From Desulfovibrionales bacterium (GTDB lineage Bacteria > Desulfobacterota > Desulfovibrionia > Desulfovibrionales > Desulfonatronaceae): a stretch of DNA of 46,714 bases. A program made the translations under genes and the position numbers. Below, piece after piece: positions 7,576 to 11,286 of the stretch. The notes under the pieces were generated by a model. That model was not told the origin of the DNA. It made no database searches and was given only the letters and a program-made list of their open reading frames with translations. The stretch is taken from the NCBI GenBank assembly GCA_007693505.1, contig REDL01000111.1, forward strand, positions 1 through 46,714. The letters are read 5' to 3'. Within the stretch, counting starts at the first letter, position 1, and every line of letters begins with the position of its first letter.

Positions 7576-8856
7576 TCAGCTCAAGACTTTCGCCAACTCC
7601 TTCCAGTGCGTCGTGTACCTCGGGCTCAGATGCGCCTGTCGCATTACCCAGCGCTGTCCTGTCCCTTCCGCTGCCACGCGCATGGTCATGGCTCCCCACT
7701 TGGTGTTGATCTGATCCATGGCATCCATCAGGGCTTTGTTGGGTACTCGGTCCGTGGGCGATGGTTCAAATAGGTTCAGCCTTCGCCCATGCTCCTGCTC
7801 GATTCCGAAAACCATCACCCCGGCCTTGCGGTACTCGAAGCCCGGCTTGCATATCAGTTCCAGCACCCTCTGGGCCGACCTGATCAGGTCCGGCGTGTGA
7901 CTCGAGGGCACGGCCAGGGAGACGGTGGCCGCGTTGCTGTACTGCGGCCTGTCCAGGCGAAAGCGGTCCGTGAGCAGGAACACCTGAAGCTGCCCGGCCA
8001 CGCACCTCTGGCCACGGAGTCGCTCCCCGACTCTGGCGGCATAGCCGCAAACAATTTGCTCAAGCTGCACTTTGTCCATGATCGCCTTGGCGAAGGTCCG
8101 CGAACAGACAATGCTTTTGGGTGTGGTCACGGTCTGGTCCAGGGGGATGCACGGGACGCCCTGAAGCTCCAGCAGGGTGTGCATCCCGTTCACGGTCATC
8201 CGCTTCTTCACCCAGTCTTTTTCCAGCTTGCTGAATTGCAGGGCGTTGCGAATCCCGAACTCGCGCAGCTTTTTGCTGTACTGCCGCCCGATGCCCCAAA
8301 CGTCCTCGATGTCGATCCCGGCCAGAATCTGGTCCGGGTCCGGATAGTCCACAAGACTGAAGCCCCCGCCGTGCTCCGGTTGCTTTTTGGCCACCCGATT
8401 GGCAATCTTGGCCAGGGTTTTGGTTCGGCCAATGCCGATGGAAACCGGAATACCGGTCCATTGCAGGATCGTGGCCCTGATCTTGCGGGTCAGTTCCAGA
8501 GGTTGCTCGTGCATCCGGTCCAGGCGCAGAAATGCCTCGTCAATGGAATAGATTTCCATGTCCGGAGTGAACCGGGAGGCTGTATCCATCACGCGGCGGG
8601 ACATGTCGCCATACAGGGCGAAGTTGGAGGAAAAAACGTGGACGCCATGCTTTCTGAACAGCGGCTGGAACTTGAACGCCGGTGCCCCCATGGGGATACC
8701 CAGGGCCTTGGCCTCGTTGGATCGGGCAATCACGCAGCCGTCGTTGTTGGACAGGACCACAATGGGCTTGCCCCGCAGCTTGGGGTTGAAGGCCCGCTCG
8801 CAGGATGCGTAGAAATTGTTGCAGTCCAGCAGGGCGAAAATGGTCGATGTCGGCAT
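7576..8856 (-). CDS. umuC: UmuC, Y-family translesion DNA polymerase (Pol V catalytic subunit)
   Basis: A 426-residue Y-family polymerase. The catalytic carboxylates are visible: Asp11 in the FALLDCNNFYASCERAFNP palm motif, and Asp106-Glu107 in YSIDEAF. The helix-hairpin-helix (GIDIEDVWGIGRQYSKKL), the little-finger region and a C-terminal tail of the DUF4113 type (ending HWKELAKVLS) follow in the expected order. I chose the ATG at 8856, which has GAGG six bases upstream, over an in-frame TTG two codons earlier. UmuC copies past lesions with UmuD' and RecA. Its partner UmuD lies upstream on the same strand, but about 580 bp containing an RdgC-like remnant separates them, which is unusual for umuDC. 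The 3' end abuts an IS3-type end without damage to the frame. Confidence 0.93.
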   Translation of the reverse strand: MPTSTIFALLDCNNFYASCERAFNPKLRGKPIVVLSNNDGCVIARSNEAKALGIPMGAPAFKFQPLFRKHGVHVFSSNFALYGDMSRRVMDTASRFTPDMEIYSIDEAFLRLDRMHEQPLELTRKIRATILQWTGIPVSIGIGRTKTLAKIANRVAKKQPEHGGGFSLVDYPDPDQILAGIDIEDVWGIGRQYSKKLREFGIRNALQFSKLEKDWVKKRMTVNGMHTLLELQGVPCIPLDQTVTTPKSIVCSRTFAKAIMDKVQLEQIVCGYAARVGERLRGQRCVAGQLQVFLLTDRFRLDRPQYSNAATVSLAVPSSHTPDLIRSAQRVLELICKPGFEYRKAGVMVFGIEQEHGRRLNLFEPSPTDRVPNKALMDAMDQINTKWGAMTMRVAAEGTGQRWVMRQAHLSPRYTTHWKELAKVLS

Positions 8857-9104
8857 ACTCAACCTCGGGTTTCATCCGGCAGCAGGACCGGAACAATGCA
8901 CTCGGGATCGTTGTTCTATGGGTCGTCGGCCCTGGTGCTGACTGGTTGAATACGGGTTGGCGTATCGGCGCAGGGCTGAAGCAAGGCGTCAATCTATCCC
9001 CGGCGGCTCTCCGGCGAAAGCCATATCGAATGATCCTCCGGTCTGATGAACAGCGCCTTACCTTATCCCGAATGCTTGTCTTTGCCTTGCGTACCCGGTG
9101 CCAA

Positions 9105-9418
9105 CCTTCCTGGGGAGCGTAGAGGACGTCGACGGTAACGGCCTCGGGTTGGGTCTTCATCAGCCGGTGCAACCTGATCTGTTCCTTGATCCCCTGGCGG
9201 CGGTCCTTGGATGGGGACTTGCCCTCCCGCTCGACGTCCTCGGCGATGCGTTTTTTGGTCAAGCGGCTCAAGACGGCGGGCTTGACTTTGCGCGTATCCA
9301 TGCGCAAGTCCCCGGACACGTCCTGGCTGGGCAGTCCCTGGCCCAGGGAAAAGTTCACGGGCTGGCTTGCGAACGAGCGTGGATGAAAAACTGCCATCGA
9401 GCCCGTGAGTCGGGGCAA
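9105..9418 (-). pseudogene. Remnant resembling an RdgC-like recombination-associated protein
   Basis: The minus-strand frame from 9418 contains LRMDTRKVKPAVLSRLTKKR, then a charged helix ending SKDRRQGIKEQIRLHRLM, then PEAVTVDVLYAPQEGW. This order of segments matches the middle of RdgC-type proteins: a strand and 'DxRKxPxxxL' helix, a basic 'KRRELKEAVR' helix, then a 'YDVVWDxxTG' strand. Both ends of the expected protein are missing, and after residue ~107 the frame degenerates and runs out of phase into umuC. I read it as a decayed gene that once sat between umuD and umuC. Family resemblance is by eye only. Confidence 0.5.
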
Positions 9419-9434
9419 GCGGGTGCAGGAAGGT

Positions 9435-9869
9435 TCAAACCAGTTTCCGGATTACACTGTTCACCACGCCCCATACTTCACAACCCATTTCCGTGGTGAC
9501 CTCGATGTCTTTGTAGGCACTGTTGGCAGGTTCGAGATAGGCCTTGCCGCTTCGCAGTCTCAGGGTCTTGACCGTCAACTCCCCATGGACGATAGCCACG
9601 ACCACCGAGCCGCTGACCGGTTCCAGGGATTTATCCACGACGAGCATGTCTCCGTCGAAGATGCCCGCATCCTTCATGGACTGGCCGCTGACCCGGACCA
9701 GAAACGTGGCTGGTGGGTTTCTGACTAGGTACTCGTTCAGATCCAGGCATTTTTCCAGGAAGTCGTCGGCGGGCGAAGGAAAGCCGGCGGGCAACCGGCA
9801 CAGCAATAAGGGCGTTTTCAGCGTGGTGCGCCGGATCAGACGGGTCACCTGGTCAAGATTTTCTCTCAT
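9435..9869 (-). CDS. umuD: UmuD, self-cleaving Pol V subunit (S24 peptidase)
   Basis: The ATG at 9869 gives 144 residues (MRENLDQVTRLIRR...), close to the usual UmuD length. A longer in-frame extension upstream is an artefact of the neighbouring small gene in another frame. The self-cleavage site is recognisable as PAG|FPSPA (Ala-Gly bond). The catalytic Ser lies in GQSMKDAGI and the catalytic Lys in LTVKTLR. RecA-stimulated cleavage would yield UmuD', the accessory subunit of the UmuC polymerase. It is preceded by the 52-residue zinc-ribbon gene with a 23-bp gap and by an S24 repressor gene further upstream, forming one likely operon. Confidence 0.92.
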   Translation of the reverse strand: MRENLDQVTRLIRRTTLKTPLLLCRLPAGFPSPADDFLEKCLDLNEYLVRNPPATFLVRVSGQSMKDAGIFDGDMLVVDKSLEPVSGSVVVAIVHGELTVKTLRLRSGKAYLEPANSAYKDIEVTTEMGCEVWGVVNSVIRKLV

Positions 9870-9892: not shown

Positions 9893-10051
9893 CTATTTCA
9901 GGTTGTCGATATTGATGGGTCTGCCGCAGTTCGGGCAACACATCAGTTTTATCATTTTGGCCCTGGGTTGATACAGGTGCCGAACCCCTTTGTTCGTTAT
10001 CACATAGGCTACGGTTATCGGATGATCGCATTCGCAATACCGCTGTTGCAT
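9893..10051 (-). CDS. 52-residue zinc-ribbon protein between repressor and umuD
   Basis: A short gene with an ATG at 10051, a strong AAGGAG ribosome-binding site 7 bases upstream, and a TAG stop at 9895-9893. The protein begins MQQRYCECDHPITVAYVITN and ends with MCCPNCGRPINIDNLK. Cys6 and Cys8 plus Cys38, Cys39 and Cys42 (CxC and CCPNC) make a plausible single zinc site; the middle is beta-rich and basic. It sits 48 bp after the S24-type repressor and 23 bp before umuD, all on one strand, so it is probably co-transcribed with the mutasome genes. Function is unknown. Small zinc ribbons often bind nucleic acid or a protein partner. Confidence 0.75.
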   Translation of the reverse strand: MQQRYCECDHPITVAYVITNKGVRHLYQPRAKMIKLMCCPNCGRPINIDNLK

Positions 10052-10099
10052 GGAGTTTCTCCTTTGTTTACTGATGTTAATTGTTGGGGCAAAAAAATA

Positions 10100-10729
10100 T
10101 CAAGCGTAATTCCGGCTGCTCCACAGCACCCGGCCAATGATCCGCAATGTATCAATTTCGTCGCCTTGAAGGGTGACCGGCTGGTAGCGCTGGTTGGCGC
10201 TGTACAGGGTGATCAGGCCGGGACGGGCCTGGACCCTCTTGATCTGCAAAGCATCCAGGTGGCCGAGCACATAGAGGTTGTTGCTCAGAATCTCCGTCTG
10301 GCTCTGATCGATCAGTACGCTGTCGCCGGGCTCCAACTCGGGAGACATGCTGTCGCCCACCACGTCCAAGACCACCATACGCTCCGGTTGGCCTTTTTGG
10401 CTGACCCAGGAGCGGGCAAAGGGAACCTCGCTAATGATATTGTCCTGGACTTCCAGTGAACCGGTCCCGGCGCAGGCCTTGGCGGAAACCTTGGGAATGA
10501 ACGTGGTCCTGGGTCTGTCGGATTGATAGACCGGCCCGGCTCCGGTTTTCAGCCATTCCAGGTTCACGCTGAACATGTTGGCCAGGGTCAAGGCCCAGCT
10601 TTTGGGCACACCCCGGGTCTTGGCCAGGGTGATGGCCGGAGGCTCAATGCCCAGCAGGTTGGCCAAGTCTTTCTGGCTGCCGATCTCGGCGACCTGTGAG
10701 GCGCGTTTGAAGAAGTCGTCAAATTTCAT
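10100..10729 (-). CDS. Helix-turn-helix / S24 peptidase repressor (CI or LexA-like)
   Basis: From the ATG at 10729 (MKFDDFFKRASQ) the protein has 209 residues. An XRE-type helix-turn-helix covers roughly residues 12-60 (GSQKDLANLLGIEPPAITLA, then KSWALTLANMF). After a linker comes a C-terminal S24 domain with the nucleophile Ser in GDSMSPELEPGDSVLIDQ and the general base Lys in LQIKRVQ. Such repressors self-cleave with activated RecA and release their operon. A longer start (residue -18) is possible but has poorer context. A 6-bp-arm palindrome, TTAACC-AA-GGTTAA, just upstream at 10740-10753 is the probable operator. The downstream genes (zinc ribbon, umuD, umuC) make this the likely local switch for translesion synthesis. 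Confidence 0.88.
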   Translation of the reverse strand: MKFDDFFKRASQVAEIGSQKDLANLLGIEPPAITLAKTRGVPKSWALTLANMFSVNLEWLKTGAGPVYQSDRPRTTFIPKVSAKACAGTGSLEVQDNIISEVPFARSWVSQKGQPERMVVLDVVGDSMSPELEPGDSVLIDQSQTEILSNNLYVLGHLDALQIKRVQARPGLITLYSANQRYQPVTLQGDEIDTLRIIGRVLWSSRNYA

Positions 10730-10739
10730 GAGGTGACTA

Positions 10740-10753
10740 TTAACCAAGGTTAA
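10740..10753. promoter_or_regulatory. Candidate operator for the S24 repressor
   Basis: The palindrome TTAACC-AA-GGTTAA has perfect 6-bp arms and a 2-bp centre. It begins 10 bases upstream of the repressor start codon. The position is right for autoregulation of the repressor-umuDC cluster. No canonical LexA box was seen nearby. Confidence 0.5.
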
Positions 10754-10826: not shown

Positions 10827-11076
10827 ATGTCCTACCTGGACGCTCAGATAGAACGCATCACCTATGTCAATGAAGAGGCCGGCTATGCCCGTGGTCAAGG
10901 TGCACGCCAAGGGGCATGCAGGGCTTGTGACCGTGGTCGGGGTCCCGCCATCGTCCAATTCTGGAAAAATTCTGAAGATGCAGGGGATCTGGGAATCCCA
11001 TCCCAAATACGCACAGCAGTGTAAAGTGCAGACTTGCGAAACGGTTCTGCCCACCACGGCCCACGCCAAAAAAGCC
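10827..11076 (+). pseudogene. N-terminal fragment of a RecD2-type helicase, frameshifted
   Basis: The plus strand from the ATG at 10827 reads MSYLDAQIERITYVNEEAGY, the typical RecD2 N-terminus. One extra base near 10890 shifts the frame. The neighbouring frame then continues VVKVHAKGHAGLVTVVG, KILKMQGIWESHPKYAQQ and VQTCETVLPTTAHA, in the order seen in RecD2 N-terminal domains. Homology stops near 11076, so the 5'-3' helicase body (about 600 residues or more) is absent. The fragment lies divergently from the mutasome operon, and its start overlaps the operator region, so it may once have shared the promoter. Confidence 0.7.
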
Positions 11077-11286
11077 CTGCCATGGCCGTTCGCAATAACA
11101 AAAACGGGAAGGGATACCCCAATCTGGATGGGCGATTGTGGAGGATGGGCCGAGTACAGGGAAGAGTTGCACAAAAGTCGGATGAAGATGCACGCCGAAT
11201 CCCACATCCGGTATTCCAAAGGCCGGCTGCTGGCATTGGCCAGCATGCGTACTGTCGTTTACCGGGTACCGGGCACCTCTTCGAAA

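Follow-up and report, generated by a model that had tools for sequence, protein, structure and literature searches.

The small open reading frame lying between a CI-like repressor gene and umuD in a Desulfovibrionales bacterium (family Desulfonatronaceae) is a real, selected and previously unnamed gene that is spread through the order Desulfovibrionales. The conserved unit to which it belongs consists of the repressor gene and this zinc-ribbon gene, with umuDC as an occasional passenger. In our estimate the chances are evenly balanced that the gene forms the second half of a conserved Desulfovibrionales damage switch of two genes, in which its protein acts as the effector. The gene is described here as it occurs in contig REDL01000111.1 of assembly GCA_007693505.1, whose analysed stretch of 46,714 nucleotides is termed the window.

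The gene occupies positions 9893..10051 on the minus strand, a strand assignment absent from the initial annotation, and its ATG-initiated frame encodes a zinc-ribbon-like protein of 52 residues (MQQRYCECDHPITVAYVITNKGVRHLYQPRAKMIKLMCCPNCGRPINIDNLK) with the pattern C6-x-C8 ... C39-P-x-C42-G. Since the surrounding 11 kb holds 102 open reading frames of at least 40 amino acids, the length of this frame is uninformative by itself. The start signals and spacing are as originally described: the sequence AAAGGAG stands immediately 5' of the ATG, with the ribosome-binding site AGGAG (10059..10063, minus strand) 7 nt before the start codon and equivalents in relatives, and the gene is separated by 48 nt from the repressor stop and by 23 nt from umuD, whose start is at 9869.

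Conservation was assessed in a sample of 348 Desulfovibrionales genomes, some of them draft MAGs, at a match cut-off of E <= 0.001 with E-values computed per genome. The gene was matched in 142 of these genomes (approximately 138 when a few marginal, single-knuckle matches are set aside), is present in about 31-32 of the 59 genera of the order, and occurs mostly as a single copy per genome. One relative, G002, carries two copies of a repressor-zinc ribbon-umuD unit (L024/L026 and L002/L025). In a 17-sequence alignment, the invariant residues are Q2, R4, C6, C8, V14, Y16, C39, P40, C42, G43, I48 and L51, which include the four cysteines of the CxC and CPxCG motifs. The initial annotation had pointed to five cysteines arranged as CxC and CCPNC; all five are present in the window protein (positions 6, 8, 38, 39 and 42), but only four are invariant, Cys38 being replaced by R, H, Q, K or other residues in most relatives. 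The window copy also carries Asp9 at a position where nearly all relatives have Gly. Within the genus, dN/dS for the gene is about 0.1; comparisons with the two closest relatives give dN of 0.025-0.033 and dS of 0.21-0.39, and pooled pN/pS is 0.16 in the zinc-ribbon frame vs approximately 1.35 in both alternative frames of the strand. Loss of the frame or the cysteines among relatives, or neutral codon substitution, had been named at the outset as evidence against the gene; neither was found, since relatives retain both the frame and the cysteines and substitution is under strong constraint, and the view that this is a small, easily overlooked gene under selection is supported. Related-looking zinc ribbons also occur in other Desulfobacterota (L120-L127, YSxVGYCxCG...IEYL...CPxCGRxLxEDxL). 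These have neither the MQxR start nor a repressor within approximately 1.5 kb, and were set apart as a separate group.

The protein is probably metal-binding, to judge from its two cysteine pairs (C6, C8 and C39, C42), which form the predicted zinc site and are invariant in alignments A1 and A4. The window protein had no match above the curated cut-offs in Pfam and NCBIfam and nothing significant in PHROGs, and other family members gave only weak matches and no fitting family. Generic zinc-ribbon families (DUF7575, Zn_ribbon_3 and RNA polymerase subunit P) gave scattered weak matches, none of which reaches the curated cut-off for the window copy, and their likeness to the protein lies in the CPxCG knuckle. 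Profile matches in the PDB to zinc fingers and to ribosomal or RNA-polymerase ribbons likewise cover the knuckle only and were not accepted as homology. An AlphaFold model of the protein is weak (pLDDT 64.5, pTM 0.40), with strands at residues 2-5, 11-19 and 22-28 and a short C-terminal helix, and a fold search of this weak model against solved structures in the PDB returned no match.

Two further readings of the gene and its protein were weighed. The cysteine spacing of Hsp33 spans a range that includes CXC-X30-CXXC, and the window copy, being CXC-X30-CXXC, falls within it, raising the idea of a stand-alone, Hsp33-like redox switch based on zinc, which would couple oxidative stress to the repressor. 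We regard this as highly improbable: an hhalign comparison with the Hsp33 zinc domain gave a probability of 0.5%, a value on which the Hsp33-type switch was rejected, the fold predicted by the weak model is built of strands rather than helices, and the spacing of the cysteines varies among relatives. An equally faint prospect is that the gene is a remnant, now without a role, of the immunity region of a domesticated prophage. While the neighbouring repressor does match phage repressor profiles (phrog_4, PF07022), the zinc-ribbon gene is under strong purifying selection and, across most of the order, occurs once per genome. Additionally, no significant homolog was detected in collections of phages, plasmids and viral contigs, the plasmid collection yielding three partial, sub-significant matches (E 0.2-0.9), and an origin as a phage or plasmid gene was rejected for want of a significant match there.

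The repressor gene (10100..10729, minus strand, with its start set at a conserved ATG at 10729) encodes an HTH domain (PF07022) joined to an S24 peptidase domain (PF00717). It has the features that mark a LexA/CI-type repressor, namely the HTH together with an S24 domain bearing an Ala-Gly cleavage site (ACAG), the serine (GDSM) and the lysine (KR), and the cleavage site, serine and lysine are kept in at least 90% of 68 repressor orthologs. When a profile of the repressor was run over the same 348 genomes, a repressor was found directly upstream and on the same strand at 132 of the 140 confident zinc-ribbon places retained for this comparison, at a distance of 52-605 nt (median 161 for the 132 places, measured between model matches). 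Reciprocally, the zinc-ribbon gene lies behind 103 of 107 repressor orthologs scoring at least 300 bits. Several of the loci that depart from the pairing lie on broken contigs or come from draft genomes, and the zinc-ribbon gene is present without an adjacent repressor in L068 and G021. Divergent from the repressor, the window holds a decayed recD2 helicase gene (10827-11140, plus strand), whose codons 1-21 and 22-80 match the intact 719-aa RecD2 of L028 in two frames; the middle of the gene has been deleted, as the C-terminal stretch MAVRNNKNGKGYPNLDGRLW follows codons 1-80. In L025 and L028 an intact relative of the gene stands next to the repressor in divergent orientation, and L026 has one close by.

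Two operator-like boxes frame the repressor gene. The first, O1, is a perfect palindrome (TTAACCTTGGTTAA, 10740..10753, minus strand) lying within the repressor promoter, whose consensus -35 element TTGACA (10764-10759) and -10 element AATAGT (10741-10736) are separated by a 17-nt spacer; the -10 is so near the conserved ATG at 10729 that the repressor message may be leaderless. The second, O2 (TTAACATCAGTAAA, 10067..10080, minus strand), stands just 5' of the zinc-ribbon ribosome-binding site. A candidate repressor box in the promoter, as called for in an SOS-regulated gene, is thus present before the zinc-ribbon gene, and O2 is found there in the genus and in relatives. The palindrome TTWAC-N4-GTWAA has exactly two sites in the window's genome, O1 and O2, and the pattern TTWACNTNNGTWAA likewise has only these two in that 3.94-Mb genome. 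In G043, TTWACNTNNGTWAA again has two sites only, at the corresponding places; other relatives searched have the same-locus sites with zero to a few extra, and the stricter pattern TTAACNTNNGTTAA picks those two places in several Desulfomicrobium-type genomes. Because the patterns were picked after the sequences had been viewed, it is these genome-wide counts that carry weight, not the fit of the pattern, and weaker sites, hence other targets, may escape the pattern. No box was seen by eye in the upstream regions of recA, and recA was set aside as a repressor target on that ground. Upstream of the zinc-ribbon gene, just before its box, most lineages have 7-8 T residues and then GNCC (e.g. window 10081-10098); this stretch may belong to a -35 region or to the tail of a terminator.

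The box itself differs in the Desulfovibrionaceae, where it is of the TGTTTA..TAAACA type, and in part of that family a second box is not obvious. In Nitratidesulfovibrio-type loci, one 16-mer, TGTTTATAAAAGTGAA, stands identically at both promoter places, and for this reason the operator appears to have changed in concert at both promoters in those Desulfovibrionaceae lineages. Across 66 loci, the best shared 16-mer has a mean of 13.0 matches vs 11.4 in shuffles, for which the 99th percentile is 13.

The relationship with umuDC is of a different order. In the window, umuD (9435..9869, minus strand), encoding the S24 autoproteolytic subunit of polymerase V, and umuC (7576..8862, minus strand), encoding the Y-family polymerase, follow the zinc-ribbon gene, and the gene is placed for co-transcription with umuD as initially proposed. 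This arrangement is not general, as umuD or umuC lies downstream in approximately 10 of some 65 distinct loci (the window, L025, L026, L028, L031, L032, L033, L044, L068 and L069), while at the remaining loci the downstream genes are varied or convergent. umuD is therefore ruled out as a conserved partner, and of the claim that the gene sits between a repressor and umuD, the tie to a LexA/CI-type repressor holds (132 of 140 places) and the tie to umuD as a general partner does not. In a Desulfonatronovibrio MAG (L068/L115), both boxes are present and the zinc-ribbon gene is followed directly by umuC, with no repressor ORF called between the boxes. At L175 (G057, C15), two boxes surround a second repressor-like gene that is followed by umuDC, and the zinc-ribbon gene is absent. 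The 570-nt interval between umuD and umuC in the window (8863-9434) matches in parts, at approximately 77-88% DNA identity, stretches of L025 and L026; no gene was identified in it. These distributions bear on a role as a polymerase accessory factor that would act with UmuD' and UmuC or with RecA in mutagenic bypass. Such a role would suit the position 23 nt before umuD in the window, the placement directly before umuD/umuC at the approximately ten loci, and the gapless junction with umuC in L068, but most relatives have no adjoining umuDC and the G057 umuDC unit lies under similar boxes without the zinc-ribbon gene. We consider this role, one of two that the initial annotation had suggested, unlikely, and as a general rule neither it nor membership of a umuD operon is supported.

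From the conserved pairing, the two boxes and the self-cleavage residues, we propose a model in which the repressor would bind two copies of one palindrome, at its own promoter and at the zinc-ribbon promoter. RecA filaments formed on damaged DNA would trigger repressor self-cleavage, releasing synthesis of the zinc-ribbon protein and, where they lie downstream, of UmuD and probably UmuC. The protein, which on this sequence-based evidence is probably a small DNA-damage-induced protein, would then fold round one zinc through its CxC and CPxCG motifs and most likely act as an effector on a conserved cell component, the least certain step of the model. An effector role is favoured because, apart from the repressor itself, two-box genomes without umuDC have no visible output but the zinc-ribbon protein, and because L068 keeps the boxes, the zinc-ribbon gene and umuC though no repressor ORF is called there.

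The near-perfect pairing with the repressor fits a role as partner of the repressor just as well. As a feedback partner, the protein would bind the repressor and either disarm it or, in the manner of DdrR with UmuDAb and gp7 with LexA, make it bind DNA more strongly. We hold this as a possible, less probable reading, for which the order-wide pairing, the placement of the zinc-ribbon gene itself under the repressor's candidate box, and, as precedents, the small proteins that accompany other LexA-like repressors (PMC11332147, PMC4551915) can be cited. Against these stand the consequence that the circuit would have no visible output in two-box genomes, the persistence of the zinc-ribbon gene in L068 and G021, where no repressor adjoins it, and the occurrence of the G057 repressor-like gene with umuDC but without the zinc-ribbon gene. 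The precedents are moreover ones of role, DdrR having been shown in Acinetobacter only and gp7 being a phage protein.

Comparison with the closest known systems places the proposed switch among related layouts. In Acinetobacter, a genus without LexA, the S24-type repressor UmuDAb controls itself and the neighbouring small-protein gene ddrR, plus umuDC (PMC11332147, PMC7273328). UmuDAb is a UmuD derivative, however, and ddrR is divergent, whereas here the repressor is CI-like and the small gene lies downstream in tandem. ddrR is reported as unique to the genus Acinetobacter (PMC11332147, PMC7273328); the zinc-ribbon protein, in contrast, has the CxC/CPxCG motif and an order-wide spread, and is likened to DdrR by layout. 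Similarly, FddR of Francisella, an S24-family repressor co-opted from phage, exerts palindrome-mediated control of itself and a neighbouring unit (PMC13148647), but it acts on divergent genes through GTG-N11-CAC, unlike the tandem gene here; the abstract of that paper names no zinc-ribbon gene, and the word 'zinc' is absent from its text (PMC13148647). The gp7 protein of phage GIL01 is also a small protein working with a LexA-type repressor (PMC4551915). It is phage-encoded and acts on the LexA of its host, and the likeness drawn here is again one of role.

The wider setting is an order whose sulfate reducers are mostly without an obvious LexA. The LexA DNA-binding domain (PF01726) was not detected in the window's genome, and among the seven other genomes of the genus G007 alone gave a match, which lay below the cut-off. 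The search took in 61 genomes; 16 of them, none from the genus, pass the PF01726 cut-off, and only approximately seven of these cover most of the domain strongly. With no canonical LexA found in the genus, the CI-like repressor is plausible as a damage regulator here, but, having two boxes, it looks like a local switch rather than a global LexA. More tentatively, the pair may be the LexA-independent damage switch of the order, in which a CI-derived repressor has one conserved target, a new zinc-ribbon protein that provides a damage checkpoint or, dependent on zinc, serves as co-repressor or anti-repressor. We found no published account of the Desulfovibrionales damage response in the open-licence literature searched. 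For these bacteria, the repressor and small-protein pair with its matched operators represents a concrete, testable candidate for an SOS-like switch, and with it a zinc-ribbon family joins the few small proteins that are linked to LexA/CI-type repressors.
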